The translations under genes were made by a program, and so were the position numbers. From an uncultured Ruminococcus sp. (GTDB lineage: Bacteria; Bacillota; Clostridia; Oscillospirales; Ruminococcaceae), in assembly GCA_946612185.1 (NCBI GenBank), contig CAMOEP010000004.1:1-20650 (forward strand): a DNA stretch of 20,650 bases, read 5' to 3'. Numbering within the stretch: the first letter of the stretch is position 1; each line of letters begins with the position of its first letter. Under the pieces are notes generated by a model, which was not told where the DNA came from, searched no databases, and worked only from the letters and a program-made list of their open reading frames with translations. This document shows positions 2-20,650 of this stretch, piece by piece.

Positions 2-1207
2 AAGAGCGAGTGCTTCGGCGCACAGCTTTCAGATACCGAGCGTGAGATGACAGCGGAACTTATGAGCCGCATGGACTTTATCCGTGATATCCTCACCGGC
101 AGGAAGAATACAGCGGATATGTTCGCAGACGATGTGCTTTCTCCTGAGAAGATGTCCATGACCGAGACAGGCGTAACTTCCAGCATCAGCATCATAGCAC
201 AGAAGATAAACGACCTCTTTAAGCAGACCGGAAAGTGCGTGAATGTGGCAGTATTCGGTGCGAGAACAGGTGTACTTGCAAAGTCTCTCCTTGAAAAGAC
301 AAAGGGCGCAGAAACTTCCCTTACCCTTATAGATTCTACAGAATTTTTCTTACAGCAGGCTAAGAGCAATCTTGCCGGTGAGAACTGCCGTTTCGAGACT
401 ATCAAGGAATTCGTTCCGGACGAACTCAGAAACGCATATGACGTGGTTATCGCCGTAAACGAACTCCACACAAGAGAGGACGTTCCCCAGGGAATCTTCA
501 TCATCAGGGAACTGATAAACGAAAACGGCACAGCTTTCGTAACCGACCTGAACGAATTCCCGCCGATATCCAGAATAACCGCAGCACTTATCGAGAATGC
601 TTTCGAGAACTTTACTTCCGAGAACCGTCCGAAGCCCAATGACCCAACTGTTCCGGCAGATAAAATGGCGGACTACTTCGCACAGGCAGGATTCAGGAGC
701 GTAAAGTGGCAGGGACTTGAAAATTCACTGTTCTTCCTGCTTGAAGCTAACGGAAAGAACTCAGTAAAGCCCGTGTCCGTAAGCGAAATCCGTGATTACC
801 TCAGCCAGCAGATGCCGGAGTATATGGTACCTGAGAAGCTTATTTTCCTGGACAGAATTCCCATGACCAAAAACGGCAAGGCGGACAGAGTACGCATCGA
901 GGAACTTGTATCCGAGGAGGAAGTAACCGACCTGATACCGCCCAGGACTGAGACTGAGAAGAAGATAGCAGCTTTCTGGAAGGATATCCTGGGACTGAAA
1001 GAAGTCGGCATAAACCAGAGCTTTTTCAAGGCAGGCGGAGACAGTCTCCTTGCCACACATCTTCTCACGCTGGTCAAGAAAGAGTACGACCTTGACCTGT
1101 CACTGAAAGAGATGTACGACGACCCCACACTTGAATCCATAGCAGCATCAATTGACGAAAAGCTTGCGGAAAGCGCAGACGACGATACCGAATTCGGTGA
1201 GATATAA
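2..1207 (+). CDS. Nonribosomal peptide synthetase, C-terminal part (5' end outside window): embedded methyltransferase-like domain, A-domain tail, carrier domain
   Basis: The frame is open to the left edge, so the ATG at 47 is internal; 401 residues are visible. Residues 1 to about 250 resemble the methyltransferase-like domain inserted into adenylation domains of siderophore synthetases such as PchE/PchF and HMWP2: a Rossmann-type start with FGARTG (residues 85-90), then YDVVIAVNELHT, which matches the usual 'vNvLHAT' stretch. The adenylation domain then resumes (EIRDYLSQQMPEYMVP, then IPMTKNGKADR with the A10 lysine near 293). A peptidyl carrier domain follows with FFKAGGDSLLATHL; the phosphopantetheine serine is near 348. 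The protein ends in an acidic tail with no thioesterase, reductase or condensation domain after the carrier. The SAM-binding glycine motif is degenerate (see findings). The FAAL gene starts 15 bp downstream, so the two are probably co-transcribed. Substrate specificity cannot be read because the A-domain core lies upstream. Confidence 0.9.
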   Translation, partial: KSECFGAQLSDTEREMTAELMSRMDFIRDILTGRKNTADMFADDVLSPEKMSMTETGVTSSISIIAQKINDLFKQTGKCVNVAVFGARTGVLAKSLLEKTKGAETSLTLIDSTEFFLQQAKSNLAGENCRFETIKEFVPDELRNAYDVVIAVNELHTREDVPQGIFIIRELINENGTAFVTDLNEFPPISRITAALIENAFENFTSENRPKPNDPTVPADKMADYFAQAGFRSVKWQGLENSLFFLLEANGKNSVKPVSVSEIRDYLSQQMPEYMVPEKLIFLDRIPMTKNGKADRVRIEELVSEEEVTDLIPPRTETEKKIAAFWKDILGLKEVGINQSFFKAGGDSLLATHLLTLVKKEYDLDLSLKEMYDDPTLESIAASIDEKLAESADDDTEFGEI

Positions 1208-1222
1208 CAGAAAGGAACTAAA

Positions 1223-3316
1223 ATGAACGAAACAAAAAACCTGACAATTGCTGGACTACTCGCAGACAGAGCTGAGAAAACCCCCGATGATACAGCATTT
1301 ATCTATGTGGACGAAAATGGTTCAGAAAGCTATACTTTCAAGGCATTTTACGAAAAGGCAGCAATTTTCGCATCATTCCTCAAAAGCAGAGGAGTAAGCA
1401 GAAACGACCGCTGCGTACTGGTATTCAGACAGAACATCGAGGTGATGTACGCATTTTTCGCCTGCAATATCCTGGGAGCGTCAGCAGTACCGCTGGAATT
1501 CCCTGACAAGGACAGCGACATCGAAAAGCTTGCCAGGATAGTGGAGAAGTGCGCAGCGGTTTGCGTACTCACAAACGATAGCGAAAGGGAGCAGGTAAGC
1601 CGTATATCAGCCGAAAATCTGGGCGGAGCGGCAGTATACTCCCCGGAGCAGTCAAAGGGCTTTGAGATGACCGGGGATATTGTTAAGGGCAATATGCCGG
1701 TGCTTCAGTACACTTCCGGTTCGACAAGCGAGCCGAAGGGCGTAATGGTAACTGAGGAGTCGCTCCTTAATAACCTGAAACAGATACAGTCCAAGCTTCA
1801 TCTTGACAGCAGCAGCCGTTGGGTAAGCTGGATACCCTATCATCACGATATGGGACTTATCGCCGGACTTCTTACAAGTGCCTATTCCGGCTGTGCTGAC
1901 GTATTCATGACACCTCAGCTTTTCAAGAAGAACCCCATGAAGTGGCTGGAGGCAGTAAGCGAATTCGGCGGAACTCATACCGTAGCCCCTAACTTTGCCT
2001 TCGAGCTTATGAACGGACTTCTCACCAAAGACCTTGAAGCCGGAAACCCCAGGAATATCTCCCTTGCGTCAGTAAAGGGTATGCTCAGCGGTTCAGAGCC
2101 GATAAGGTTCAATACTTTCCTGAAATTCATCGAGATAAGCGGAAAGTACGGCATGAAGGACGATATCATCAGAACCGGCTACGGACTGGCTGAGTCCACG
2201 CTGGTAGTAAGCCTTAACGACCTTGACAGTCCTATCGGCTGGCTGAAACTGAATAAAAAGGCACTTGCGTCGAATATAGTTGAGATAGCCGGCAGAGGCA
2301 GACTTTGCGGAAGCACCGAAAAGGCTGACGAGAATAACGAGGACTATACCTACCTGGTTGGAAATGGTACTACAGTAGACGATAACAAGGTAATGGTGCT
2401 TGATTCCGACGGCGAGGAACTTCCTCCCCTGAAAATAGGCGAAGTTTGCATTTCTGGCCCGACTCTTGCCCAGGGTTATCTGGATAACCCGGAAGCTACC
2501 AATGAGGTATTCGTAAAGACCGCATCAGGCGAAACGATACTCCATTCAGGCGATGCCGGATTCTGGGGCGAGGACGGTGAACTTTACATCACCGGCAGAT
2601 TCAAGGACATGATAGTTATCCACGGCGAGAACTACTTCCCCGCAGACATCGAGGAAGTTTCCGCAAAGAGTGACCCTGCGCTGAGTTATGGCGCTTGCGC
2701 TTTTTCCGGTTCTGACGAGGACGAGGACAGCCTTGTTATCGTGCAGGAGGTATCCGATGAAGCGGTAGAAAGCGCAGATTTCAGCGATATTGCTGAGAAG
2801 ATAAGAAACGCCGTACTTGCGTCATTCTCACTGGTAGTAAAGGCAGTCGTACTTGTAAGGGCGGAGAGTATCCCCCGTACAGAAAGCAGAAAGATACAGC
2901 ATAAAAAGACCCGTACACTGTTCCTGAAAAATGCGCTTGAAAAGGTGCTTTACCAGACTGAGAACCAGGCTGAAACTGACCTGAGCGAGGTAAAGATCGA
3001 GAGCGAGGACGATCTGAAGAAAGTCATCACAGAGGGACTTGCTGCCTATCTGGGACTTTCTCCGGATAAGATCGACCTGACAATGCCGTTTATGCAGATG
3101 GGAATAAATTCCGAGCTGTCGGTAAAAATGGTCAACAAGATCAATACGATCCCGCAGATAGAACTTGCCATTGCAGATATATTCAACTACAACACCGTAG
3201 AGAAGTTCGCATCATACATATACAGCCGTTTCTTCGCAGCAGACACCGCTGCAGAAGACCTTGACAGCATGGACGAGAACGAACTTGCAGACCTTCTGGC
3301 TGCTGAACTTAACTGA
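1223..3316 (+). CDS. Fatty-acyl-AMP ligase (FAAL)-like protein with C-terminal acyl/peptidyl carrier domain
   Basis: Predicted to adenylate a carboxylic acid, probably a fatty acid, and load it on a carrier domain as the starter of the peptide. The 697 residues show FAAL hallmarks: LQYTSGSTSEPKGVMVT (161-177, P-loop-like A3 motif), WIPYHHDMGLI (203-213), VAPNFAFEL (254-262), GYGLAEST (319-326), and a long insert-containing stretch before VGNGTTVDDNKVMVLD (379-394) as in FAALs rather than acyl-CoA ligases. The C-terminal lobe has GRFKDMIVIHGENYFPADIEE (458-478) and TESRKIQ with a lysine near 557. A carrier domain occupies about 595-670, with MGINS placing the phosphopantetheine serine at 630. 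The acidic tail ending ELADLLAAELN is typical of assembly-line carrier proteins. The start has AAAGGA 6 nt upstream. An aryl-acid ligase is the main alternative, but the motifs favour FAAL. Confidence 0.88.
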   Translation: MNETKNLTIAGLLADRAEKTPDDTAFIYVDENGSESYTFKAFYEKAAIFASFLKSRGVSRNDRCVLVFRQNIEVMYAFFACNILGASAVPLEFPDKDSDIEKLARIVEKCAAVCVLTNDSEREQVSRISAENLGGAAVYSPEQSKGFEMTGDIVKGNMPVLQYTSGSTSEPKGVMVTEESLLNNLKQIQSKLHLDSSSRWVSWIPYHHDMGLIAGLLTSAYSGCADVFMTPQLFKKNPMKWLEAVSEFGGTHTVAPNFAFELMNGLLTKDLEAGNPRNISLASVKGMLSGSEPIRFNTFLKFIEISGKYGMKDDIIRTGYGLAESTLVVSLNDLDSPIGWLKLNKKALASNIVEIAGRGRLCGSTEKADENNEDYTYLVGNGTTVDDNKVMVLDSDGEELPPLKIGEVCISGPTLAQGYLDNPEATNEVFVKTASGETILHSGDAGFWGEDGELYITGRFKDMIVIHGENYFPADIEEVSAKSDPALSYGACAFSGSDEDEDSLVIVQEVSDEAVESADFSDIAEKIRNAVLASFSLVVKAVVLVRAESIPRTESRKIQHKKTRTLFLKNALEKVLYQTENQAETDLSEVKIESEDDLKKVITEGLAAYLGLSPDKIDLTMPFMQMGINSELSVKMVNKINTIPQIELAIADIFNYNTVEKFASYIYSRFFAADTAAEDLDSMDENELADLLAAELN

Positions 3317-3328
3317 TAAGAATACTCC

Positions 3329-3361
3329 AAAAAGACCTGCTCTGGAAACGGAGCAGGTTTT
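3329..3361 (+). terminator. Rho-independent terminator after NRPS/FAAL genes
   Basis: Stem ACCTGCTC (3335-3342) with GAGCAGGT (3351-3358), extendable by one T-G pair, 6-8 nt loop, flanked by five A and a short T run (3358-3361). It begins 13 bp after the FAAL stop and separates the biosynthetic genes from the transport operon. The short T run makes partial read-through plausible. Confidence 0.8.
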
Positions 3362-3393
3362 AATGGCGCATATTCATTAACCAAATGGCGCAT
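3362..3393 (+). promoter_or_regulatory. Direct repeats upstream of -35: candidate AraC-family activator site
   Basis: Two identical copies of AATGGCGCAT (3362-3371 and 3384-3393) start 22 bp apart, about two helical turns. A weaker third copy, TGGTGCTT (3405-3412), touches the -35. Tandem direct half-sites on one face of the helix just upstream of -35 are the usual layout for AraC-family activators, and an AraC-family gene lies in the operon. The assignment to that protein is inference. Confidence 0.5.
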
Positions 3394-3410
3394 TTGTGTC
3401 TTTTTGGTGC

Positions 3411-3439
3411 TTGAAATTGTGTAGTTATTAGGTTATAAT
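3411..3439 (+). promoter_or_regulatory. Promoter of the ECF/ABC transport operon
   Basis: TTGAAA (3411-3416), a 17-bp spacer, and TATAAT (3434-3439): an essentially consensus housekeeping promoter. Transcription would start near 3446, leaving a leader of about 40 nt before the S-component start. A promoter this strong would be expected to need repression, which fits the dyads overlapping it. Confidence 0.85.
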
Positions 3440-3460
3440 AACTAAGGTTGCAGCAACTAA
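3422..3460. promoter_or_regulatory. Tandem dyad operator over -10 and +1 (DtxR/IdeR-like half-site)
   Basis: TAGTTATT (3422-3429) and AATAACTA (3437-3444) form a perfect 8-bp inverted repeat spanning the -10. Two adjacent 15-bp units are imperfect direct repeats, GGTTATAATAACTAA (3431-3445) and GGTTGCAGCAACTAA (3446-3460); each is itself a dyad of GGTT and AACT(AA) half-sites. The left half TTAGGTTA (3428-3435) equals the half-site of the known DtxR/IdeR consensus TTAGGTTAGSCTAACCTAA; the right half is shifted by one base. A metal-responsive repressor binding here would block RNA polymerase. The repressor gene itself is not in the window. Confidence 0.6.
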
Positions 3461-3485
3461 CAAAAATAAAATTATGGAGGATAAT

Positions 3486-4094
3486 ATGAACGTTCAGAAA
3501 ACATCGACCGGTAAAATGAATGGAAAGGAGCTGATAACAGTCGGCATCTTTTCGGCTATCTATTTCGCCATAAACCTTGTCTTTATGGTCGCAGGCGGAA
3601 TACACCCTATCATCTGGCTTATGATGCCCGCATTCATCGCACTTTGCACAGGCGTGCCATATATGCTTCTTTGTGCTAAAGTGCCGAAAACCGGTGCAAT
3701 AACCCTTATGGGACTTATCACAGGTCTTATTTACTTCGCAACAGGAACATTTACTATCGTGATACTTCTCACATTCCTTGCTGCCTGCATCATAGCAGAG
3801 ATCATCAGAAAAGCCACAGGCTACAAAAGTACGGTGGGAAACCTTTTCTCCTACGTTGTTTTCTCCGTGGGAATGATAGGTTCGCCCCTCCCCATATGGC
3901 TTTTCAGAAACGACTTTCTCACCCAGATAAGGGAGCAGGGAATGGGCGAGCATTATGTACAAGTGCTTGACGGACTGGCAACCGGCAAGATGCTTGTGAT
4001 AATGATACTCCTCACAATAATATGTGCATTTGTCGGTTCGGGACTTTCAAAGATAATGTTCCGCAAGCACTTTGAAAAGGCAGGAATGGTGTAA
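3486..4094 (+). CDS. ECF transporter S component, MptD/Trep_Strep-like
   Basis: Predicted substrate-binding membrane subunit of an energy-coupling-factor importer. At 202 residues it has about five to six hydrophobic segments (roughly 18-36, 40-63, 68-87, 88-107, 115-140, 168-188) and a positively charged end (RKHFEKAGMV), the usual length and shape of S components. It resembles the family labelled MptD or Trep_Strep, whose substrates are mostly undefined. The start at 3486 was chosen because GGAGG (3476-3480) lies 5 nt upstream; the in-frame ATG at 3474 overlaps that ribosome binding site. It is the first gene of the operon and its stop overlaps the next start (TAATG), implying coupled translation with EcfT. 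Family recognition is from overall pattern, not alignment. Confidence 0.78.
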   Translation: MNVQKTSTGKMNGKELITVGIFSAIYFAINLVFMVAGGIHPIIWLMMPAFIALCTGVPYMLLCAKVPKTGAITLMGLITGLIYFATGTFTIVILLTFLAACIIAEIIRKATGYKSTVGNLFSYVVFSVGMIGSPLPIWLFRNDFLTQIREQGMGEHYVQVLDGLATGKMLVIMILLTIICAFVGSGLSKIMFRKHFEKAGMV

Positions 4095-4753
4095 TGCTGA
4101 AGCTTGACCCAAGAACCTGTCTGATACTTCTGGTCATCGCAAATGTGGTAATATTCATACAGAACAGTGCGGTTATCGAAATAGTGTGGATAGGGCTTCT
4201 GCTCGTGCTTTTGTGCATATGCGGCGCAGCCCGTTCAGCGGCAAAGCTTGCGGGAGTATTCGCTGGCTGCATGATACTCCAGTACATCATCTTCCCCATT
4301 GCACCGAAAGCGATAGTGAGCATATTCTTCATATTCATATCCTACGCAAGAAAAGCAATGCCCTGTCTTATCGTGGGTACGCTTATCATGAAGACCGTTT
4401 CCGTCCGGGAACTTACCGCAGCACTTTTGAAATGGAAAGTACCATACAGTTTCATAATATCCCTTTCAGTTTCCATACGCTACTTCCCGGCGATAAAGGA
4501 GGAGATAGGGTATATCCGTGATGCTATGAAGCTTCGCAATATAAAGTTTGCGGACAAATTCGAGTGCATGATAGTTCCCATAATGATGTCGGCAGCAGCC
4601 ACATCGGACGAACTTTCAGCCGCAGCAGTCACCAGAGGTATCGAGAATCCCTGTGAAAAGACCAGTATAATCGACATAAAGTACGGCATTGCCGACTATA
4701 TCTGTATAGCTGCCGGAATACTGTTCACAGTGCTTGCGGTGGTTATCCGCTGA
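4094..4753 (+). CDS. ECF transporter transmembrane (T) component
   Basis: Membrane scaffold that couples the ATPases to the S component. The 219-residue protein is hydrophobic, with segments near 8-22, 28-44, 50-68, 72-85, 90-100 and 200-218, and a cytoplasmic section carrying the two EcfT coupling motifs: RDAMKLRNI (142-150) and AAAVTRGIENP (176-186), the counterparts of the paired Ala-Arg-X motifs that dock on EcfA. SIRYFPAIKEEI (127-138) before the first motif is also family-typical. The start overlaps the S-component stop by one base, and EcfA begins 11 bp after its stop, so the three genes encode a complete dedicated ECF module. Confidence 0.88.
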   Translation: MLKLDPRTCLILLVIANVVIFIQNSAVIEIVWIGLLLVLLCICGAARSAAKLAGVFAGCMILQYIIFPIAPKAIVSIFFIFISYARKAMPCLIVGTLIMKTVSVRELTAALLKWKVPYSFIISLSVSIRYFPAIKEEIGYIRDAMKLRNIKFADKFECMIVPIMMSAAATSDELSAAAVTRGIENPCEKTSIIDIKYGIADYICIAAGILFTVLAVVIR

Positions 4754-4764
4754 GGAGGACGGCA

Positions 4765-6165
4765 ATGATAGAGATAAAGGACACAAGCTTTGATTACGTC
4801 AAGGGTCAGAATACTCTTGACCATGTTAACATCAATATCGGAAAAGGAGAGTGCGTACTCCTGTGCGGCGAAAGCGGCTGCGGCAAGACTACAGTCACCA
4901 AGCTGATAAACGGGCTGATACCGCACTTTGAAGAAAACGGAGAACTCAGAGGAAAAGTCACCGTGGCAGGGCTTGACACCGCAAAAGCGGAACTTTATCA
5001 GCTTAGCTGTCATGTGGGTTCGGTTTTCCAGAATCCCAAGTCCCAGTTTTTCCATACCGATGCGGAGAGCGAGATAGTGTTCGGACTGGAAAATTCCGGC
5101 ACTGACCCGGCAATTATCCGTCAGCGTCTTGATGATACCGTCAGGGAACTCGGCATAAGCTCAATGCTTGGACGGAGCGTATTCTCAATGTCCGGCGGCG
5201 AGAAGCAGATGCTTGCGTTTGCGTCGGTATACGCAATGGGAGCGGATATATTCGTTCTCGACGAGCCGACAGCGAACCTGGACGAAGGTGCGATACAGCT
5301 TCTTGCACGGCTTATCCGCAAGTGCAAGACCGACGGCAAGACGGTAGTTATCGCAGAGCATAGGCTATACTTCCTTATGGAGCTTATCGACCGGGCGATA
5401 TATATGGAAAAGGGCAGGGTAGTCCGGGAGTTCACACGGGAGCAGTTCTCGGCACTCACTGACAGCGAGCGCATCTCAATGGGACTGCGGACGCTGACTA
5501 AAACGGCGCTTATCCCACGGATAGATCACGGTCAGCAGAATGTCCCGAAAGGACTGGAAGTCCGGGGACTTAGCTTCCGCTACGGCAAGCAGAAGGTTTT
5601 CACCGGGCTTGACCTGAACGCCGGATACGGCGAGATAATCGGCATAATCGGCAAAAACGGCGCAGGAAAAAGTACCCTCAGCCGATGCCTGTGCGGACTT
5701 ATCAAGGAAAGCGACGGCGAGATACTTCTTGACGGCAAGCGGCTGAAAGACCGTGCAAGGCGGAAGGAAAGCTTCCTTGTGATGCAGGACGTTAACCACC
5801 AGCTATTCTCTGACAGTGTGACAAACGAGTGCCATATGTCCTCGGAGGACGTTAGCGAGGAAAGGGCAGACCATATCCTCTCCCTTCTTGACCTGGCTGA
5901 CTTCAAGGATAAGCACCCTATGGCACTTTCCGGCGGTCAGAAACAGCGTCTTGCAGTAGCTACGGCGATACTGTCCGGGAAAAAGATACTGGTATTTGAC
6001 GAGCCTTCCAGCGGACTTGACTACAGAAGAATGGAATCCGTCAGCAGTATGCTGAAAAAGATAGCCGCAGATGACCGCATAATCATCGTCGTGTCACACG
6101 ACTATGAACTGCTCAACAACATCTGCGACAGGTGCTTCTGCGTGACAGGAGAAAAGGATCAGTAA
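4765..6165 (+). CDS. Fused ECF transporter ATPase (two ABC domains in one chain)
   Basis: Energises the ECF module. The 466-residue chain has two complete ABC ATPase domains in place of separate EcfA1 and EcfA2. Domain 1: Walker A GESGCGKT (35-42), Q-loop Gln 89, signature SMSGGEKQM (141-149), Walker B FVLDEPT (163-169), H-loop His 199. Domain 2: Walker A GKNGAGKS (296-303), signature ALSGGQKQR (387-395), Walker B ILVFDEPSSGLD (408-419), H-loop His 445. All catalytic positions are present in both halves, so both sites could hydrolyse ATP. GGAGG (4754-4758) lies 6 nt before the start. Fused EcfA chains of this size are common in Firmicutes with MptD-type S components. Confidence 0.92.
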   Translation: MIEIKDTSFDYVKGQNTLDHVNINIGKGECVLLCGESGCGKTTVTKLINGLIPHFEENGELRGKVTVAGLDTAKAELYQLSCHVGSVFQNPKSQFFHTDAESEIVFGLENSGTDPAIIRQRLDDTVRELGISSMLGRSVFSMSGGEKQMLAFASVYAMGADIFVLDEPTANLDEGAIQLLARLIRKCKTDGKTVVIAEHRLYFLMELIDRAIYMEKGRVVREFTREQFSALTDSERISMGLRTLTKTALIPRIDHGQQNVPKGLEVRGLSFRYGKQKVFTGLDLNAGYGEIIGIIGKNGAGKSTLSRCLCGLIKESDGEILLDGKRLKDRARRKESFLVMQDVNHQLFSDSVTNECHMSSEDVSEERADHILSLLDLADFKDKHPMALSGGQKQRLAVATAILSGKKILVFDEPSSGLDYRRMESVSSMLKKIAADDRIIIVVSHDYELLNNICDRCFCVTGEKDQ

Positions 6166-6166
6166 A

Positions 6167-7153
6167 ATGACGTTTGACCTGAAAAATATGTACTTCGGCA
6201 ACGACGTGACCGACGTGTTCGAGAAGGACGGATGCAAGATAATGCGCCTTGCTACTGAGGCAGGCGAGGGTATCATGACCGTCTATGACGTTCTTGACGG
6301 GGTATACATCATGTACAATAATTTCCACATGGAAAGCTGCCGGTCGGACTTTGTACCCGGCGACAATGTACTTTGCATCGACCACTGCCGTGAAGGCAGG
6401 ATAGAAACGGGGGTATCTGATAATGCCTGCTGTTGTCTGTCCGCAGGTGAACTGAGGATAGACAATGGTATGCACAATCACGGCTTGTCACGTTTCCCCC
6501 TGAATCATTACTACGGGCTTTCGATAGCCTTTGAACTTGACAAGGCGCAGGCAGCACTTGACAGCTTCATCAGGGAGTTCCGGGTAAAGCTGTCGGACAT
6601 CTCCCGGAAGTACTGTGCCGAAAAGACATCGTATGTCATCTCCTCCTCGCCTGAGATAACCCACATTTTCTCAGAGCTTTACAATGTGCCGTCGAAGATA
6701 AAGCGGGACTACTGCCGGATAAAGGTGCTGGAACTGCTTCTTTACCTTGACGCACTGGAGATAGACAGATACAAGACGGAAAAACCATATTTCTACAAAG
6801 GTCAGATAGAGAAGATACACGCAATACACGAACTTATGGTATCTGACCTGACACGTTCATACACGATAGAGGAACTGTCCCGGAAATTCGACATTGCTCC
6901 CACATCGCTGAAGAAGTGTTTCAGCAGCGTCTACGGCAGCCCCATATTCTCCTACATGAAGAATTACCGGCTTGACCGTGCGGCATCGCTTCTTAAAACA
7001 GAGCCTTCCATGAAGGTGGCGGATATAGCAATGGCAGTAGGCTACGAGAGTGCAAGCAAGTTCTCAATGGCATTCCGCAAGGAAATGGGCAGAAATCCTC
7101 TTGATTACCGTAAATACGCAATTCAGACTGAGGTGAATCCAAATGAAGAATGA
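6167..7153 (+). CDS. AraC-family transcriptional regulator (YbtA/PchR-like context)
   Basis: Likely activator of this operon and perhaps of the NRPS genes. Of 328 residues, the N-terminal about 210 are a ligand-sensing region containing the stretch CIDHCREGRIE (70-80) and FPLNHYYGLSI (110-120), both typical of AraC proteins in siderophore loci. The C-terminal DNA-binding domain has two helix-turn-helix motifs, near 232-254 (TIEELSRKFDIAPTSLKKCF) and 283-305 (KVADIAMAVGYESASKFSMAF), ending GRNPLDYRK. The sensor region is unusually rich in Cys/His (C70, H73, C74, C88-C90, H103, H105). The start is 1 bp after the EcfA stop with AAAGG 9 nt upstream; the end overlaps the next gene by 11 bp. YbtA (yersiniabactin) and PchR (pyochelin) are the known functional models; the actual ligand is unknown. 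Confidence 0.87.
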   Translation: MTFDLKNMYFGNDVTDVFEKDGCKIMRLATEAGEGIMTVYDVLDGVYIMYNNFHMESCRSDFVPGDNVLCIDHCREGRIETGVSDNACCCLSAGELRIDNGMHNHGLSRFPLNHYYGLSIAFELDKAQAALDSFIREFRVKLSDISRKYCAEKTSYVISSSPEITHIFSELYNVPSKIKRDYCRIKVLELLLYLDALEIDRYKTEKPYFYKGQIEKIHAIHELMVSDLTRSYTIEELSRKFDIAPTSLKKCFSSVYGSPIFSYMKNYRLDRAASLLKTEPSMKVADIAMAVGYESASKFSMAFRKEMGRNPLDYRKYAIQTEVNPNEE

Positions 7154-8933
7154 AAAAAACTGGTTTGGCTTGATGCTTGGATACGCCGAGGGCAGTAAGT
7201 CCACACTTATCGGCTCGGTAGTATTATCCATAATAAGTGTTACCAGTGGTATATTCCCGTACTACTGTATGTACAGGATAATCGACGCATTCGTACAGGG
7301 AAATGTAACAAAGAGCTATGTAATGGGCTGGTGTCTGGCGGCACTTATCGCCTTTGCTCTGAACGTGCTGGGCTTTGGTCTTTCCACAGGACTTTCTCAT
7401 CTTGCAGCATTCGAGGTACTTGCCGGACTGAGAAAGCGTGTGGCAGACCGCTTCATGCACGCTCCTCTTGGAACAGTACAGAACCATTCTATCGGTGAGA
7501 TAAAGAACATCATCGTAGACAAGATAGACAACATCGAGCCGCCCCTTGCACATATGGTACCTGAGGGAGCAGGACATATCGTAGTGCCTGTCGTGAGCAT
7601 TATCTCCCTTTGCATCATCGACTGGCGGCTTGCCCTTGCGTCACTGGTAACATTCCCTGTAGCTATCGTTTGCATGGGACTCACCTTCAAGATAAGCGGC
7701 GAGAACTTCGACATCTACAACCGTTCAAATGCGCAGATGAACAGTACTATCGTTGAGTACATCGAGGGTATCGAGGTCATCAAGGCATTCGGCAGAGCGG
7801 GTGTATCCTATGAGAAGTACGCAGGTGCGATAAATGACTATAAGAAGTTCGTTATCAAGTGGCTCAGCTCCACATGGGTAACAATGAAGCTTGCCTTTGC
7901 GCTTTTCCCCTCCACAATGGTGGGAATCCTTCCTGTAGCGCTGGCACTTTGCAACGGCGGAAAGATAAGTGCCGCAGAAGCAGCGCTGGCAGTAATGCTC
8001 TCACTGTCAATGGTAGGTTCACTGGCAAAGCTGGAGGTATTCTCCGAGAATATGCGTCAGCTTAAAAATACCGTAAACGAACTCCAGACATACCTTGAAA
8101 TGGAGGAGCTTCCTGAGCCTGCAAACAAGGCATCTGTAAGCAGCTATGATGTGAAGATAAGCGGCATCAGATTCTCCTACACAGGCGATGAGAAGGACGA
8201 AGTACTCCACGGTGTAGACCTTGACCTTCCCCAGGGCAGCTTTACCGCAGTCGTAGGCCCGTCAGGAGGCGGTAAGTCCACTGTAGCAAAGCTTCTGGCG
8301 AGATTCTGGGACGTATCCTCCGGAAGTATCACTATCGGCGGCGTGAACGTAAAGAATATGCCCCTTTCACAGCTTGCAGACATGGTAAGCTTCGTGGCAC
8401 AGGATAACTTCCTTTTCAGAACATCTATCCTTGAAAATATCCGTCTGGGAAATCCTTCCGCAACTGACGAGGAGGTTATCGAAGCAGCCCGTGCAGCCCA
8501 GTGTGAGGACTTCATCAAGAAACTGCCCCAGGGCTATGATACACCAGCCGGTGAAGCAGGTAAGCGGCTTTCCGGCGGTGAGAAGCAGCGTATCGCTATC
8601 GCCCGAATGATACTGAAAAATTCACCTATCGTAATACTCGACGAGGCAACAGCCTTCACCGACCCCGAAAACGAGGACAAGATACAGCAGAGTATCGCAG
8701 CACTCACCAAGGGCAAGACCCTGCTCGTTATCGCCCACAGACTTTCGACTATCCGCAGCGCTGACAATATCGTACTTCTGAAAAAGGGACAGATAATCGC
8801 ATCTGGTACTCAGGAGGAAATGCTTGAAAACAGCCCGCTTTACAAGTCCATGTGGCTGACACATATCGGTGCGAAGAACTGGTCAGTTTCATCGTCCGAG
8901 AAGGAGGGTAATAACAATGTTCAGAACGCTTAA
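7143..8933 (+). CDS. ABC half-transporter (membrane + ATPase), YbtP/YbtQ/IrtAB-like, first subunit
   Basis: Type IV ABC half-transporter of 596 residues: membrane domain about 1-310 with six predicted helices, ATPase domain about 335-575. ATPase motifs: Walker A GPSGGGKS (372-379), Q-loop Gln 420, signature RLSGGEKQR (475-483), Walker B IVILDEAT (496-503), H-loop His 532. The D-loop text ATAFTDPENE is the variant found in metallophore importers with an exporter fold (YbtPQ, IrtAB), where 'ATAFADPENE' is common, rather than the usual ATSALD of exporters. It overlaps the AraC gene by 11 bp and the second half-transporter by 17 bp, so the two halves probably form a heterodimer. AGGTGA lies 6 nt upstream of the start. 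Export of the peptide is the main alternative to import. Confidence 0.88.
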   Translation: MKNEKNWFGLMLGYAEGSKSTLIGSVVLSIISVTSGIFPYYCMYRIIDAFVQGNVTKSYVMGWCLAALIAFALNVLGFGLSTGLSHLAAFEVLAGLRKRVADRFMHAPLGTVQNHSIGEIKNIIVDKIDNIEPPLAHMVPEGAGHIVVPVVSIISLCIIDWRLALASLVTFPVAIVCMGLTFKISGENFDIYNRSNAQMNSTIVEYIEGIEVIKAFGRAGVSYEKYAGAINDYKKFVIKWLSSTWVTMKLAFALFPSTMVGILPVALALCNGGKISAAEAALAVMLSLSMVGSLAKLEVFSENMRQLKNTVNELQTYLEMEELPEPANKASVSSYDVKISGIRFSYTGDEKDEVLHGVDLDLPQGSFTAVVGPSGGGKSTVAKLLARFWDVSSGSITIGGVNVKNMPLSQLADMVSFVAQDNFLFRTSILENIRLGNPSATDEEVIEAARAAQCEDFIKKLPQGYDTPAGEAGKRLSGGEKQRIAIARMILKNSPIVILDEATAFTDPENEDKIQQSIAALTKGKTLLVIAHRLSTIRSADNIVLLKKGQIIASGTQEEMLENSPLYKSMWLTHIGAKNWSVSSSEKEGNNNVQNA

Positions 8934-10665
8934 ACGTATAATCGACTGGTGCGGAGATTTCAAGAAAAATCTCTATATCGGATTTGTATTTTCATTCTTC
9001 TCCCACTGGTTCGCAGCAATGCCGGTAATGGTGGCAGCGTACACCATAAATATGCTGGTGGAAAAGGAGAAGAACGGTACAGATTTCGATAAGAAGTGGA
9101 TATGGATAAGCCTTGTGGTACTTATCGCACTGGTACTTCTCCGCTTCCTTTTCGACTACATCAAGGCAAGATTCCACGAAACTATCAGCTATGAGCTTGT
9201 AGCCCGTGACAGAATAGCCGTAGGTGACGCACTCAAGCGAGTATCCCTGGGTTACTTCCAGCAGAAGAATACCGGTAGTATCCTCTCCTCAATAACCACC
9301 GGTCTTAATACCCTTGAAAATATGGGTATCAGAATGACAGATACCTTTATCGGCGGCTATCTGAACTTCGTGGTAATATTACTTTGCCTGCTGTTTGTAA
9401 AGCCTGCCATAGCACTTATTGCAATTGCGGCAGCAGCACTTTCATTCGTGTTCCTGCTGATGATATCCCACTACAGTACAAAGAATGCACCTGTTGAAAC
9501 TGAGTCGAACAAAGACCTTACCGGCGCAGCACTGGAGTACGCAAGAGGACTTTCAGTAGTAAAGTCATTCGGACAGGGCGGCGCATCAATGTCAGCAATG
9601 GATAAGGCTATCATCGACAGCAAGAATATCCACCTGAAAGTTGAGTGGGGATTCATTCCCTCCAACTGCCTCCACCTTTTCGCTCTCAAATGCGGAACAG
9701 TATGCATCGCCCTTGCGTCCTGCCTGTTCTGCATGGCAGGAAAACTTGACTTCTCCTATATGCTCATGTTCATATTCTTCTCCTTCGGAATATTTGCAAG
9801 CCTTGAGCCTATCAGTGACAGCGCACATATTCTTGGCGTTATCTCCGATGCATTTGACCAGCTTGACGCACTGAAAGAGGACAACATGATCGACAAGGAC
9901 GGCAAGGACATTCCACTTGACCACTTTGATATCAGCTTCAAGAACGTTGAATTCGGCTACGATACCAGAAAGATACTGAAAAACGTAAGCTTTGACATTC
10001 CCGAAAAGACAAGTACTGCTATCGTAGGCCCGTCCGGTTCAGGTAAGACTACAATATGCAGTCTGCTTGCAAGATTCTACGATGTAAACAGCGGAAGCAT
10101 CACCGTAGGCGGCAACGACATCAGAACCATGACCTGCGACAGCCTGCTGAAAAACATCTCAATGGTTTTCCAGAACGTGTACCTGTTCAATGATACTATC
10201 AGGAACAATATCAAGTTCGGAAACCCCAACGCAACCGAGGAGGATATGATATCCGCAGCGAAAAAGGCGTGCTGCCACGACTTCATCATGGCGCTGCCTG
10301 AGGGATACGATACAGTTATCGGTGAAGGCGGCGGAACGCTTTCCGGCGGTGAGAAGCAGAGAATATCCATTGCCAGAGCGATACTGAAGGATTCGCCTAT
10401 CATCATTCTTGACGAAGCGACCGCAAGTATCGACCCTGAGAACGAGCATCTTATCCAGAACGCTATCTCAGAGCTGACCCACGGCAAGACCATTATCACC
10501 ATCGCTCACCGACTTGCAACTATCGAAAATGCCGACCAGATACTCGTTATCGAGGACGGCAAACTTATCCAGAAGGGTACTCATAAGGAACTTATGAAGC
10601 AGGAAGGCGTTTACCGCAGATTCATCGGTATCCGCCAGCACGCTGAAAACTGGAGCATCAACTGA
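8917..10665 (+). CDS. ABC half-transporter (membrane + ATPase), YbtP/YbtQ/IrtAB-like, second subunit
   Basis: Partner of the preceding half-transporter. The start at 8917 (MFRTLKRIIDW) is supported by AAGGAGG (8901-8907) 9 nt upstream and by alignment with its sister; an in-frame start at 8869 would add 16 basic residues inside the upstream gene and is not favoured. The 582 residues comprise a membrane domain (about 1-310) and an ATPase domain (about 335-575): Walker A GPSGSGKT (371-378), Q-loop Gln 419, signature TLSGGEKQR (474-482), Walker B IIILDEAT (495-502), H-loop His 531. The D-loop ATASIDPENE again carries the DPENE feature. Both ATP sites look catalytically complete. A strong terminator follows 14 bp after the stop, so this is the last gene of the operon. 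Confidence 0.88.
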   Translation: MFRTLKRIIDWCGDFKKNLYIGFVFSFFSHWFAAMPVMVAAYTINMLVEKEKNGTDFDKKWIWISLVVLIALVLLRFLFDYIKARFHETISYELVARDRIAVGDALKRVSLGYFQQKNTGSILSSITTGLNTLENMGIRMTDTFIGGYLNFVVILLCLLFVKPAIALIAIAAAALSFVFLLMISHYSTKNAPVETESNKDLTGAALEYARGLSVVKSFGQGGASMSAMDKAIIDSKNIHLKVEWGFIPSNCLHLFALKCGTVCIALASCLFCMAGKLDFSYMLMFIFFSFGIFASLEPISDSAHILGVISDAFDQLDALKEDNMIDKDGKDIPLDHFDISFKNVEFGYDTRKILKNVSFDIPEKTSTAIVGPSGSGKTTICSLLARFYDVNSGSITVGGNDIRTMTCDSLLKNISMVFQNVYLFNDTIRNNIKFGNPNATEEDMISAAKKACCHDFIMALPEGYDTVIGEGGGTLSGGEKQRISIARAILKDSPIIILDEATASIDPENEHLIQNAISELTHGKTIITIAHRLATIENADQILVIEDGKLIQKGTHKELMKQEGVYRRFIGIRQHAENWSIN

Positions 10666-10679
10666 TACACTTAAAAAAC

Positions 10680-10724
10680 GACCTGCTGTGCATTTCAAAA
10701 CGGTGCGCAGCAGGTCATTTTTAT
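10680..10724 (+). terminator. Rho-independent terminator of the transport operon
   Basis: GACCTGCTG plus TGCA (10680-10692) pairs with TGCG plus CAGCAGGTC (10704-10716), a 13-bp stem with one wobble and an 11-nt loop, followed by ATTTTTAT. It is preceded by a run of six A, so it may also act weakly on the opposite strand. Confidence 0.9.
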
Positions 10725-17109: not shown

Positions 17110-19404
17110 TCATTCCATACCTTTCAGCACTTCCACCATATCAATGCGCTTGATGCGGCGGGAGAAAAGGAAGCTTACCAGGACGGACACAGCCATAACG
17201 AAAATGGCGGCGATAAGGAACGTAGAGGGCGCAATATAGCAGGGCCAGTCGATTGCGTCGCCGTTTGAGTCCATCATAGCCTGAAGCGGCACACGTCCCA
17301 GAGGCAGACCGCAGATAACTCCGACGATAGACAGCCAGAGATTCTGGGTGGAAAGAAGTCTGCGGATAGCGCTGCTTCTGAATCCGAGAACTTTCAGTGT
17401 AGCGAACTCTTTCTCTCGCTCGTTGAACGACAGATTCCCCGAATTATAGAGAACTATCACGATAAGCAGAACGGAGAATATCACCATGAAGTAAACCAGC
17501 AGGTTCATTATCTCCATCATTTTATCGAAAGCGGCGATAAGGTCTTTCATGCTGTGAACTGCTGAAACATAGTTCCTGTCAGCGGCATTGTCGCAGTTTT
17601 CCTTAGACACGAGCATTACCGGGCGGAAGGTTTCGCCGGCAGCCTCGAAGTCCTCCCGGAGCATAGTTATACCGGTGATATTTGGGTGACGGGAGATAAG
17701 ACCTATCTTGCTCTCATTCCACTTGCTTCCGGAGGCGGTTTTCCAGTAAACCATATCACCTACAGAAAGTCCAAGTTTTTTTGCCTGTTTCATAGTTAGA
17801 GCCACTGTTCCCTCCGGAATAGGCGTGGTATTCAGTTCCGTGTCGGACACGCAGTAAAGTCCCTCGCTCTCGGTAACGGCTAATTTGCAGCTTATGATGC
17901 CGTCGGAGGTAGGGTGGTCTTTGGCGGCGATAGACACAGCACTCATTGCTACAAGTTCGCCGGAGGTATCGTTTTTTAGTTCCTCCGCCTGTTCCGGCGA
18001 GCAGCTATCGCTGAGTATCACCTGATACTCATAGTTCTGGATATCGTGGAAATACCAGTCACGAACGTAGTCAACGGTATCATACGCACCCAGCCCCAGT
18101 TCCATTATCATCATACCCATGCAAGTGCCGAAAATTCCCATGAACGCACGCATTTTGGAGCGTGAGATGTCACGGAGGTTATATCTTGCATTGAAGCTGA
18201 GTTTATCCCAGAAGGGGAGTTTCTCGAAAATGCAGGGCTTTGCGGTTTTTGCGGCAGCAGGGCGGAGCGCCTCCGATGGGTGTATCTTTAGTATCTGCTT
18301 GCAGCTAAGGTATGAAGTGGAGGTGCATATCAGTACCAGCACCGCCGCAACGATGATACTCTTGTAGCTGAAACCGGGCTGCCAGCCGGGAATGGTGTAG
18401 AACTGGCTGAACATATCCACCATAAGTTTACCGAAAGTGAATATACCCAGAACTATACCCAAAGCGCAGCCGATTACGGACAGGAAGAAGCTGTAGCTGA
18501 GGTAGTGGGTAAGTATCTTGCTTTTCTTCATACCCAGAGCGTTGAGCGTACCGATCTGAGTGCGCTGCTGAGCGATCATGCGCTTCATTGTGGTGATGAT
18601 TACCAGCAGGGCGATAGCCACGAACACGAACGAGAAGATGTATGAAAAGCTGTCATGCTGGGAAAGTTCGTCGGAAAGCTGATACCAGCCACGGATGCTG
18701 TTTCTGTCCGCAAGGTAGGCGTAGTCATTGTCCAGTGCCGTGGCGATGCTGTCCTCATAGCTGAGTGACTTGCCGTCGCAGGTGAATATTATTTCGTTGC
18801 TGATGCGCATTTCCTCCGGGAGGACTTTTGCGGATAAATAGGCAAAGCCGATATTATGGAAATCGGAATCGGTATCCGTAGAAGCGCAGGCGAATTCGTA
18901 TTCCGGAGTGACGATAAGACCCTTGACTTCTTTCTCAATGTCAAGCCCCATAACATGAACGGTGAACTTGTCGCCCACCTTGATATCCCATGTCTCGGCA
19001 AAGCGGCTGAACAGCCACAATCCGTCCGGGTCATCGGGGTCGAAGTCAGCACCGGCGACAGTCTGTGGGATAGTCACCTGGGCGCAGTCCTGGAAATAGC
19101 AGTACATCTCAGCGGTGTTGAATTTCTCATCAGCTTTTCCGAGAACCTCCGTCCTGAGCTGAGCTTTATTGATGCCGTTGATATCCTTGATTTTCCGAAG
19201 CTGATCGTCACCGAAACCTGCGCCGTATATCCAGCCGTCAGCGAAAGCACAGTCTCTTTCAAAGGTTTCCCTTGCCTTATTTCCGCCCACCACATTTGCC
19301 TGAAAGCCGGTATAGCACCACATAGCGATAAGCGACAGGAGCATGATCGAGAAGAACTGAGCGAAGTTTGCCTTGATGTCTCTGAGCATTTTTCTTCTGA
19401 GCAT
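17110..19404 (-). CDS. FtsX/MacB-family ABC transporter permease
   Basis: Membrane subunit working with the adjacent ATPase. The 764 residues have an N-terminal membrane helix (about 14-33), a large extracytoplasmic domain (about 35-250), three helices in the first FtsX domain (about 252-272, 302-322, 348-366), a fourth separating helix (about 420-438), a second extracytoplasmic domain (about 445-630), and a second FtsX three-helix bundle (about 632-653, 688-705, 725-747). Each FtsX domain has its coupling text: TQIGTLNALGMKKSKI (282-297) and KEFATLKVLGFRSSAI (665-680). GAGGTG lies 6 nt upstream of the start; the gene begins 10 bp after the ATPase stop. Such pairs act in peptide or lipoprotein handling, antimicrobial resistance or cell-envelope signalling; the substrate cannot be read here. 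Confidence 0.9.
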   Translation of the reverse strand: MLRRKMLRDIKANFAQFFSIMLLSLIAMWCYTGFQANVVGGNKARETFERDCAFADGWIYGAGFGDDQLRKIKDINGINKAQLRTEVLGKADEKFNTAEMYCYFQDCAQVTIPQTVAGADFDPDDPDGLWLFSRFAETWDIKVGDKFTVHVMGLDIEKEVKGLIVTPEYEFACASTDTDSDFHNIGFAYLSAKVLPEEMRISNEIIFTCDGKSLSYEDSIATALDNDYAYLADRNSIRGWYQLSDELSQHDSFSYIFSFVFVAIALLVIITTMKRMIAQQRTQIGTLNALGMKKSKILTHYLSYSFFLSVIGCALGIVLGIFTFGKLMVDMFSQFYTIPGWQPGFSYKSIIVAAVLVLICTSTSYLSCKQILKIHPSEALRPAAAKTAKPCIFEKLPFWDKLSFNARYNLRDISRSKMRAFMGIFGTCMGMMIMELGLGAYDTVDYVRDWYFHDIQNYEYQVILSDSCSPEQAEELKNDTSGELVAMSAVSIAAKDHPTSDGIISCKLAVTESEGLYCVSDTELNTTPIPEGTVALTMKQAKKLGLSVGDMVYWKTASGSKWNESKIGLISRHPNITGITMLREDFEAAGETFRPVMLVSKENCDNAADRNYVSAVHSMKDLIAAFDKMMEIMNLLVYFMVIFSVLLIVIVLYNSGNLSFNEREKEFATLKVLGFRSSAIRRLLSTQNLWLSIVGVICGLPLGRVPLQAMMDSNGDAIDWPCYIAPSTFLIAAIFVMAVSVLVSFLFSRRIKRIDMVEVLKGME

Positions 19405-19414
19405 TTACGTCACC

Positions 19415-20116
19415 TCACCATTCTATATCATTTGCAGACAGGGGAGTGTCATTGGTTTTAATGGACTTTATCTTACCGTTTCTCATATGTATAATACGGT
19501 TAGCGCACTTTGCAATGTCCGCATTGTGGGTAACGAGAATGACGGTATTACCGTTTTCTGTAGAAAGCTTCTGGAGCAGGTCGATAACTATCTTACCTGT
19601 TTCCGAGTCCAGCGCACCGGTAGGCTCGTCGCCCAGGATGATTTTAGGGTCTTTGGCGAGGGCTCGTGCGATAGAAACTCTCTGCTGCTGACCGCCTGAC
19701 ATCTGGGTGGGAAACTTATTTTTCTGGTCGGCAAGTCCCACACGTTCCAGCATATCGTCTGGGCTGAGTGCGGACTTTTTGATATCCTTGACCAGAGCAA
19801 CGTTTTCATAAGCGGTAAGACCGGGCAAAAGGTTGTAGAACTGGAAAATGAAGCCGATAGTATCGCCCCGGTAATCTGAAAGCTGGCGGTCGTTGTAGGA
19901 GGAGATCTCCTTGCCGTCCACGAAAACCTTACCCTCGGTAGGAACGTCCATACCGCCCAGCATATTGAGAACAGTTGACTTTCCAGCGCCGGACTGACCG
20001 AGTATCACGACGAATTCACCCTGTTCGATAGTGAAGCTGACGTGATCCACCGCCACCTGTTTTCCCTCGCCTTTACCGTAGATCTTAACTACGTCCTTGA
20101 ATTCTACTGCTGGCAT
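19415..20116 (-). CDS. ABC transporter ATPase, MacB/LolD type
   Basis: Energises the FtsX-type permease encoded next to it. The 233 residues have Walker A GQSGAGKS (40-47), Q-loop Gln 92, signature MSGGQQQR (139-146), Walker B IILGDEPTGALD (159-170) and H-loop His 197. DEPTGALDS and the FQFYNLLPGLTAYENV stretch after the Q-loop are characteristic of the MacB/LolD branch that partners with FtsX-fold permeases. The start at 20116 (MPAVEF) has AGGAGG 7 nt upstream; an upstream in-frame ATG at 20152 has no ribosome binding site and lies in the leader. It is the first gene of a two-gene operon with its own promoter. Confidence 0.94.
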   Translation of the reverse strand: MPAVEFKDVVKIYGKGEGKQVAVDHVSFTIEQGEFVVILGQSGAGKSTVLNMLGGMDVPTEGKVFVDGKEISSYNDRQLSDYRGDTIGFIFQFYNLLPGLTAYENVALVKDIKKSALSPDDMLERVGLADQKNKFPTQMSGGQQQRVSIARALAKDPKIILGDEPTGALDSETGKIVIDLLQKLSTENGNTVILVTHNADIAKCANRIIHMRNGKIKSIKTNDTPLSANDIEW

Positions 20117-20163
20117 TATAGTACCTCCTGTTTTAGATGTTAGTATTTGCAAACTATATTAAT

Positions 20164-20364: not shown

Positions 20365-20514
20365 TTACCTCTCAAACTTAAACAGCTTAGCAGTAATGGA
20401 ATGGTTCAGCATGGCGAGTGCGATGCCGGCGACGATGACCACGGGCAAAGTCCAGGCAGGGCTGCAATTCATCAGTGTATCAGCATATCCGCTGGGCATT
20501 TCCTCCACGGAACA
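20365..20514 (-). pseudogene. 3' remnant of a membrane-protein gene (possibly an ECF S component), cut by a repeat element
   Basis: The last 49 codons read as protein-like: PSGYADTLMNCSPAWTLP, a hydrophobic helix (VVIVAGIALAMLN), then a basic end (SITAKLFKFER) and TAA. The layout recalls the C-terminus of MptD-type ECF S components such as the one at 3486-4094 (Tyr, Leu, a final helix, then a basic tail), but this is a weak resemblance. The frame runs straight into the repeat element starting at 20516, and no start codon with a properly spaced ribosome binding site is present (GGAGG is only 2 nt from the one suitable ATG). Between the stop and the terminator (20231-20364) I see only small hairpins, for example ATACTG/CAGTAT near 20296-20313. 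Confidence 0.45.
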
Positions 20515-20515
20515 C

Positions 20516-20650
20516 TTAAGGCAACACCGCACAAAGACCGCCTGACGGCTTTGCAGCGCATATACTTGCATATTTTCCGGCATCTTGCACATAAATTTTT
20601 TGACATACGTCAGTATGCCTGCGAAATTTATGCACAATCTGCCGAAAAAT
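20516..20650. repeat. Hairpin-rich repeat element, MITE-like, continuing beyond the window
   Basis: Left boundary set by the change of character at TTAAGGCAACACCGCACAAA (20516-20535). Inside, arms 20572-20598 and 20624-20650 form a long imperfect inverted repeat: CGGCATCTTGCACATAAATTT (20578-20598) against AAATTTATGCACAATCTGCC and one more G (20624-20644), about 17 of 21 positions paired. A central hairpin CATAC (20604-20608) / GTATG (20613-20617) closes it. There is no coding potential of its own. A small mobile element or dispersed repeat fits best; the right end and any target duplication are outside the window. Confidence 0.6.

Follow-up and report, generated by a model that had tools for sequence, protein, structure and literature searches.

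The window analysed here comprises 20,650 nucleotides and is an entire contig (C4) from the genome of an uncultured Ruminococcus sp. (G000; assembly 73.7% complete, 433 contigs). Eight plus-strand genes, all open frames in a single orientation, occupy positions 2-10665 and encode the end of a non-ribosomal peptide synthetase (NRPS), a fatty-acyl-AMP ligase fused to an acyl carrier protein (FAAL-ACP), an energy-coupling factor (ECF) transporter, an AraC-family regulator and two ATP-binding cassette (ABC) half-transporters. The question raised by this locus is what its enzymes make, what its transporters carry and which metal they serve. The locus is real, nearly complete and conserved, and is of the thiazoline metallophore type, with FAAL-ACP as the proposed starter and iron as the likeliest metal; it probably makes, exports and re-imports such a metallophore. 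The host is taken to be an anaerobe, Ruminococcus-like and of the R. flavefaciens group.

A nearly complete assembly line

The window opens within the gene of a stand-alone NRPS protein with adenylation (A), methyltransferase-like (MT) and peptidyl carrier (PCP) domains. Another contig of the same genome, C16, carries the upstream genes, from inside an Irp3-type reductase gene to residue 533 of the A-MT-PCP protein, whose 533 N-terminal residues form the end of C16 (L022:14661-16261); the window resumes at about residue 552-556. Both pieces map to a single 952-aa protein of G097, a genome of the same genus (residues 1-533, then approximately 552-556 to 952). The two contigs do not overlap; the gap, estimated from this contiguous relative, is about 18 residues (some 50 bases), and the proposed join rests on synteny.

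In G097 the entire locus lies on one 101-kb contig. The order is alpha/beta hydrolase, saccharopine-dehydrogenase-like protein (SacDH), Irp3-type reductase, TubC-Cy-A-PCP-TE (1547 aa; Cy, heterocyclisation domain; TE, thioesterase), KS-AT-ACP-Cy-A-PCP-TubC-Cy (2554 aa; KS, ketosynthase; AT, acyltransferase), type II thioesterase, phosphopantetheinyl transferase, a PP-loop-like protein (a 373-aa open reading frame, ORF), A-MT-PCP (952 aa), FAAL, EcfS, EcfT, EcfAA, AraC, ABC1, ABC2 and a TetR gene. The genes of the window's locus follow the order of their G097 counterparts, with approximately 69-88% protein identity. Because G097 shares this order and sequence, and Butyrivibrio, Pseudobutyrivibrio, R. 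flavefaciens FD-1 and Paenibacillus do so more distantly, chance or artefact is ruled out as the origin of the locus.

The complete line comprises KS-AT-ACP-Cy-A-PCP-Cy, A-(MT-like)-PCP and Cy-A-PCP-TE proteins, FAAL-ACP, a type II thioesterase, a phosphopantetheinyl transferase and the Irp3-type reductase. A sequence-only reading of the window had proposed a metallophore-type NRPS of the yersiniabactin, pyochelin or equibactin kind with an acyl starter ligase, and had suggested extending the contig upstream. The extension yields Cy domains, cysteine-type A domains, thioesterases, the phosphopantetheinyl transferase and the reductase, and domain content and A-domain codes agree with that proposal: the locus is a predicted yersiniabactin/pyochelin/equibactin-type thiazoline line with a fatty-acyl-AMP ligase starter.

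The code of cysteine A domains is DLYNLSLIW. The three codes of G000 are DLYNMSLIW, DLYNISMIW and DLYNMSLIW, that of the A-MT-PCP protein being DLYNMSLIW. Cysteine-type codes are present in 13 of 13 A domains (12 from FAAL loci, including these three, and one from a non-FAAL locus, G089), and also in all three A domains of G097. The Cy motifs of the 2552-aa KS-AT-ACP protein of G000, DFMIADAAS and DCMLLDGWS, fit DxxxxDxxS, and the best solved matches of both domains are heterocyclisation domains (Irp2, EpoB and bacillamide synthetase). The Irp3/YbtU-type reductase is recognised by PF21390, with scores over the cut-off for both G097 and the C16 fragment. The A-MT-PCP protein is devoid of a condensation (C) domain, and the C-terminal Cy domain of the 2552-aa protein has no A-PCP after it; the two may therefore cooperate in trans.

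The MT-like domain lies inside the A domain, as the sequence-only reading had it, with GARTG at the position of S-adenosylmethionine (SAM)-binding motif I; alignment of the window with four relatives shows G(A/V)RTG throughout. Because GARTG stands in place of motif I, the domain may be epimerase-like or inactive, for which PchE-type MT-like epimerisation domains are a precedent (PMC6604713). The terminal module has a short insert, for which no methyltransferase match was obtained.

The FAAL-carrier protein recognised earlier is likewise present. Fatty acyl-AMP ligases are among its best NCBIfam families, all under the curated cut-offs, and its closest solved structures include FAALs such as FadD32. 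No aryl-acid AMP ligase was found among the scanned genes (the window, C16 and G097:C164 from the hydrolase gene onwards), of which FAAL-ACP is the sole stand-alone ligase. Pfam scans of G097 and C16 detected no ketoreductase in KS-AT-ACP between the AT (to 861) and the ACP (from approximately 922); therefore a non-aromatic cap is predicted.

The order of action suggested by these domains begins with FAAL-ACP, which would activate a carboxylic acid and load its own carrier domain, after which KS-AT-ACP would add one malonyl-type unit. Three cysteine modules (Cy-A-PCP; Cy with A-MT-PCP in trans; Cy-A-PCP) would then incorporate as many as three cysteines and close them into thiazolines; conversion of one ring to a thiazolidine would fall to the Irp3-type reductase, and release of an acyl-capped, yersiniabactin-like chelator to the C-terminal thioesterase. 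The secreted chelator would come back as a metal complex.

Some accessory genes differ between relatives. The phosphopantetheinyl transferase and A-MT-PCP genes of G000 overlap, with no PP-loop gene between them. In G097 (L024:5892-7013) and Pseudobutyrivibrio (L026:6093-7145), A-MT-PCP is preceded by an ATPase-like gene of PP-loop (SGGKDS) type that encodes N-terminal cysteines; the two versions are 74% identical over 250 residues, beyond which the G097 ORF diverges. PP-loop enzymes of the SGGKDS kind make amides or thioamides, and the ligand may be modified in some of the relatives with this gene. Behind FAAL, Butyrivibrio has glyoxalase-like and Cys/Met-metabolism pyridoxal-phosphate (PLP) enzyme genes (L025:12092-14126), possibly for precursor supply or resistance, and Pseudobutyrivibrio has similar-sized ORFs in the same position. 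Separately, G000 carries a second NRPS on contig C174 (L021:179-5545), a thioesterase and A-PCP-C-A with A-domain codes unlike cysteine, and a further NRPS contig, C47.

Transport genes

The S component, EcfT, fused EcfA, AraC regulator and two half-transporters named in the sequence-only reading are all present (Table 1), and both half-transporters have DPENE behind the Walker B motif. The S, T and A components of an ECF importer are encoded together, and we take the unit to be a group I ECF importer. For the transmembrane part of ABC1, the nearest solved structure is chain A of 6p6i/8vsi (YbtPQ entries; the partner chain is YbtQ) at 72.9 bits, followed by IrtA and YbtQ; for that of ABC2 it is IrtB at 38.8 bits. 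When whole chains are compared, P-gp-like two-half chains come first, and the best half-transporters are YbtPQ for ABC1 and MsbA for ABC2.

In Streptococcus equi, deletion of eqbHIJ, which encode the ECF unit, removed most of the equibactin-dependent iron gain and reduced 55Fe accumulation; deletion of eqbKL caused no such loss, and an efflux role was suggested for EqbK/L (PMC3672683). By analogy with EqbHIJ, the ECF unit of the window would be the likeliest importer. The YbtPQ/IrtAB-like pair could be a ligand exporter, as suggested for EqbKL, or a second importer. The resemblance of the exporter-fold pair to YbtPQ and IrtAB shows with the transmembrane parts alone, and the pair is not necessarily an importer, the equibactin data suggesting export for EqbKL. 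The proposed coupling of the NRPS to both transporters is supported by relatives that keep the transport genes near the NRPS.

Regulatory sequences

FAAL and the transport genes are 157 bp apart, and this gap contains a terminator-like stem and a promoter of sigma-70 type. Because this gap follows FAAL, the single operon proposed earlier holds for the six transport and regulator genes and not for FAAL. Two direct repeats upstream of the -35 element form the proposed AraC operator; G097 retains the second AATGGCGCAT copy with one difference, and the first copy is not evident there. The AraC protein would probably sense the loaded ligand and activate the transport genes through these tandem repeats.

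Table 1 Features of the locus, in coordinates of the window.
Feature	Coordinates	Strand	Evidence and remarks
C-terminal part of stand-alone A-(MT-like)-PCP NRPS	2..1207	+	Pfam AMP-binding_C, Methyltransf_12, PP-binding; open at contig end
FAAL-ACP, proposed starter loader	1223..3316	+	Pfam; NCBIfam; solved structures
Terminator-like inverted repeat between FAAL and transport genes	3335..3358		Scan gives minus-strand reading only; on the plus strand, 4-5 T behind stem
Direct repeat AATGGCGCAT, two copies whose starts are 22 bp apart; proposed AraC operator	3362..3393	+	Just upstream of -35
Promoter-like TTGAAA-17-TATAAT ahead of transport genes	3411..3439	+	11/12 consensus positions
ATTAGGTTATAATAAC, 2-mismatch copy of GTTAG-N6-CTAAC over -10	3427..3442	+	Best match in the window's promoter
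GGTTGCAGCAACTAAC, second 2-mismatch copy of the palindrome	3446..3461	+	Read by eye; G097 has GGTAGCAGCTACTAAC (1 mismatch) there
ECF S component, MptD/Trep_Strep family	3474..4094	+	PF09605 above cut-off; TIGR02185 127.1 bits vs cut-off 76.45; probable start ATG at 3486, behind GGAGG
EcfT, CbiQ-like transmembrane coupling protein	4094..4753	+	PF02361
EcfA-EcfA' fused double ATPase	4765..6165	+	Two ABC_tran stretches
AraC-family regulator	6167..7153	+	HTH_18
ABC half-transporter 1 (ABC1), exporter fold	7143..8933	+	Pfam; solved-structure comparison
ABC half-transporter 2 (ABC2), exporter fold	8869..10665	+	Pfam; solved-structure comparison; probable start ATG at 8917
Terminator-like hairpin behind last gene	10680..10716	+	Terminator scan

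A palindrome, GTTAG-N6-CTAAC, recurs ahead of EcfS in relatives and is the core of the equibactin EqbA operator. It is exact in 12 of 27 promoters, within one mismatch in 17 and within two in 19 (three or more in the remaining 8), a count that includes the promoters in which it was first noticed, the pattern having come from the G097 site and the EqbA operator having been read afterwards. In this set the L150 slice has only 61 bases, and the L139 slice missed an exact site (G054:C41:13462). Resampled promoters (300 first-order Markov resamplings, not exact shuffles) would be expected to give 0.003 exact hits among 27, 0.13 within one mismatch and 1.83 within two. The genome-wide count is the more independent test: 53 exact palindromes against 4 for the reversed pattern in eight genomes, all chosen among cassette carriers. 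Exact palindromes precede both EcfS and SacDH in Butyrivibrio and Pseudobutyrivibrio; in FD-1 the palindrome lies before EcfS and an A-PCP gene, and in G097 before SacDH.

Twenty-five of the 53 genome-wide sites were fetched and 20 adjacent proteins scanned. Palindromes precede feoB (G097), feoA (G013, two sites), ZIP genes (G000 and G097), a Shr-like gene (G000) and a DUF2325 gene. The other neighbours are not clearly of an iron kind: among them are a formate/nitrite-type transporter, a hexapeptide-repeat protein, a GLUG protein, two enolases, two ABC ATPases, an oxidoreductase beside a ZIP gene and six proteins without a family. A DtxR-family gene is present in G000, on contig C78. We read these sites as a putative iron regulon of the DtxR type, in which a DtxR-family repressor would shut down biosynthesis and transport under plentiful iron. 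No match to the Fur box (GATAATGATAATCATTATC) was found within three mismatches in the window.

Occurrence in relatives

At least 80 FAAL loci were matched across genome contigs, of which the first six (L024-L029) were examined. The window, G097 and R. flavefaciens FD-1 each have all six transport and regulator genes near a FAAL-thiazoline locus. In Butyrivibrio hungatei and Pseudobutyrivibrio, EcfS-T-AA is followed by SacDH, Irp3 and NRPS genes, ending with A-MT-PCP and FAAL. In Paenibacillus arenosi, the NRPS is accompanied by an ABC1-ABC2 pair and a gene of AraC type (57-bit match). The L028 stretch does not extend far enough for a judgement; a different short contig of its genome, G128, carries EcfS-T-AA, with palindromes at either end.

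Two of these relatives show further transporter genes. FD-1 has ABC1/ABC2-like fragments beside intact AraC and ABC1 genes, with an ABC2-like gene in two pieces (L029:6482-7664, L019:8448-10278). In B. hungatei, the 20 kb upstream of the FAAL locus contain five exact palindromes, three EcfS genes and two ABC1-ABC2 pairs (L215:1153-19536), which might mean that it handles several ligands.

Of 125 genomes in the genus, 3 have FAAL (1e-40), 28 EcfS (1e-20), 39 an ABC1 relative (1e-105) and 30 a match to the Cy-A-PCP-Cy query (1e-80, at which matches may include ordinary NRPS). Both the ABC1 relative and the NRPS query are found in 19 genomes (odds ratio 6.5, Fisher p = 3e-5, uncorrected for relatedness and hence confounded). 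Among the places listed, the two lie on the same contig at least 11 times, and in 9 of these no more than 29 kb apart. Because 20 of the 39 genomes with ABC1 have no NRPS match, the transport cassette is not tied to self-made ligands. Twenty cassettes were fetched out of 34 EcfS places listed: ABC half-transporter genes of the same kind stand beside EcfS in 18, an NRPS or accessory biosynthesis match lies in the stretch in three (L134, L150 and L152), and L142 has a distant AMP-ligase match (23%).

Comparison with known systems

Equibactin, encoded by eqbA-N in the ICESe2 element of S. equi (PMC3672683, PMC8754150), shares with the locus a yersiniabactin-like NRPS, thiazoline reductase, SacDH-like and alpha/beta-hydrolase genes, a type II thioesterase, a phosphopantetheinyl transferase, the ECF S-T-AA unit, the YbtPQ-like pair and the operator core GTTAG-N6-CTAAC. 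It differs in its salicylate-AMP ligase starter, where the window has FAAL-ACP, in its own DtxR-like EqbA gene, in the single A domain of EqbE and in its location on a conjugative element; the part of its gene table covered lists no AraC gene. The 023_CTn1 cluster of Clostridioides difficile RT023 (PMC6814731), described as ABC, ABC, AraC, ABC ATPase, Ecf, membrane protein, thiazolinyl reductase and saccharopine dehydrogenase, corresponds to the transport set of the window and its neighbours. Its host too is an anaerobe; unlike the locus of the window, the cluster sits on a transposable island, is described as closest to equibactin and has no FAAL in the described part. An NRPS of Staphylococcus lugdunensis is another case of ECF genes with an equibactin-like NRPS (PMC12709192).

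FAAL starters have also been linked to thiazolines. Micacocidin and massiliachelin, thiazoline/thiazolidine siderophores, share a FAAL, a polyketide synthase (PKS) and cysteine modules that include MT domains and MT-like domains for epimerisation; they differ in the ketoreductase in their domain list and the pentyl-phenol ring of the product, no ketoreductase having been found in the line of the window (PMC6604713). Cyanochelin B (PMC12628792) is a siderophore whose acylated thiazoline comes from a FAAL, a PKS and a cysteine module that has domains for cyclisation and methyl transfer; it differs in having two beta-hydroxyaspartates as main ligands and one thiazoline, and is cyanobacterial. In systems of the micacocidin type, the FAAL primes the pentyl-phenol ring. 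Of that type, in which a FAAL feeds a PKS with ketoreductase to give an aromatic cap, the locus has the FAAL, and the ketoreductase was not found.

The S component of the window has the family name MptD, as in mptDEF of Mycobacterium avium subsp. paratuberculosis. There, IrtAB-like mptABC and mptDEF, annotated as cobalt-type permease and ATPase, lie by a siderophore synthesis cluster (PMC4298942). The likeness is one of description; that system is zinc-responsive and has no FAAL-thiazoline line in the described part.

Novelty had therefore been overstated by the sequence-only reading, which took an acyl starter ligase in such a system to be undescribed: micacocidin, massiliachelin and cyanochelin B combine FAAL with thiazoline modules, and ECF, AraC, two ABC genes and a thiazoline NRPS are published together for the C. 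difficile island. ECF with an equibactin-like NRPS is already known, as is FAAL with thiazoline in siderophores. Among the open-licence papers listed, no title or abstract opening describes the combined FAAL-thiazoline-ECF locus.

Metal and alternative functions

The sequence-only reading held zinc, copper or nickel to be as likely as iron. Because the operator is common to feoA and feoB in relatives, the evidence is read here as pointing to iron over these metals, though the copies in the window's own promoter are weak. A zincophore system (or one for manganese or copper), in which the same thiazoline chelator and cassette would serve zinc, appears unlikely, although several observations suit it. 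mptABC is regulated by zinc, not iron, and mptDEF are among the zinc-starvation responsive genes (PMC4298942); yersiniabactin can serve as a zincophore (PMC8636617). Two palindrome sites precede ZIP transporters, and binding of EqbA is enhanced by Zn2+ as well as Fe2+. Against zinc stand the palindromes before feoB and feoA, which encode ferrous iron carriers, and the lowered 55Fe accumulation on eqbHIJ deletion. The feo sites likewise speak against an acyl-thiazoline antibiotic or signal, whose transporters would give self-protection or signal uptake and not metal gain, as do the Irp3-type reductase, the ECF and IrtAB/YbtPQ-type genes and the uptake results for equibactin. In favour of this alternative, many lipopeptides have FAAL starters. 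A related gut cluster, bil, also gave antibacterial thiazoles, described as shunt products, with no significant metal binding in preliminary tests (PMC11934131). The alternative is nevertheless very improbable.

That the cassette imports a foreign ligand or vitamin and stands behind the NRPS by coincidence is also improbable. It is favoured by the S component and ABC1 relative being found in 28 and 39 of the 125 genomes and FAAL in only 3, by the 16 of 20 fetched cassettes with no NRPS-like, accessory or adenylating-enzyme match in the stretch, and by an S-component family with no assigned substrate in NCBIfam. The contig sharing of ABC1 and NRPS described above argues against coincidence, as does the collinear order in Butyrivibrio and Pseudobutyrivibrio with exact palindromes before EcfS and SacDH.

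A self-made iron metallophore is thus preferred, and several observations weigh against it, beyond the zinc response of the mpt genes. The window's own transport promoter has only two-mismatch palindrome copies, for which the chance rate is approximately 7% per promoter (1.83/27); the feo-linked sites come from relatives, the exact sites of G000 lying near ZIP and Shr-like genes among others, and most of the 20 palindrome-adjacent proteins have no clear iron role. The SacDH gene of G000 was searched for and not found, consistent with the incomplete assembly, and the biosynthetic promoter lies outside that assembly. In the assembly line, the Cy motif of the terminal module is EFLIADWTS, with E replacing the first D (the same change occurs in Paenibacillus), and the MT-like domain is without a canonical SAM motif, where GxGxG is expected. 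In G097, FAAL is interrupted by an in-frame TAG and EcfAA lies in two overlapping frames (L024:9992-14891), which may be decay there or assembly errors. EcfS was not found in the P. arenosi genome at 1e-6, and to these are added the ABC1 genomes with no NRPS match and the confounding of the co-occurrence statistic.

Genomic surroundings

To the right of the locus are a dockerin-bearing GH5 gene, a LacI/AraC-like regulator, a DUF4832-dockerin gene and an FtsX-ABC pair, which look unrelated to it. The pair, an FtsX-type permease and an ABC ATPase, is on the minus strand (17110-20152); in G007 (L200), an ABC ATPase gene lies 15 bp behind a palindrome. A mobile element is unsupported by the window, as judged from the right flank with its dockerin-bearing GH5 and DUF4832 genes, and a search for near matches found no plasmid relatives. 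A candidate second ECF S component (20365-20649) was rejected: its Trep_Strep match is weak (20.8 bits, below the 28.7 cut-off) and pairwise comparison was unconvincing. Rfam gave zero matches at gathering scores in the window.

Implications

The locus brings together a nearly complete biosynthetic line, a candidate importer, a candidate sensor and an iron-type operator in anaerobes, from habitats in which such molecules are hardly studied. One of the relatives, Butyrivibrio hungatei XBD2006, is a named isolate and so allows direct tests of product, metal and transport. The question posed by equibactin, which transporter imports and which exports, becomes testable, and the abundance of the cassette in genomes with no NRPS match offers a handle on ligand sharing. 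A broader proposal is more tentative, with somewhat less than an even chance of holding: that acyl-primed poly-thiazoline iron carriers form a family, so far undescribed, in anaerobes of Ruminococcus, Butyrivibrio and Pseudobutyrivibrio under a feo-linked DtxR-type regulon, and that many ruminococci devoid of the biosynthesis keep the six-gene uptake cassette, the carrier being a shared or pirated good. If true, siderophores would be in use where soluble ferrous iron was thought to make them needless.

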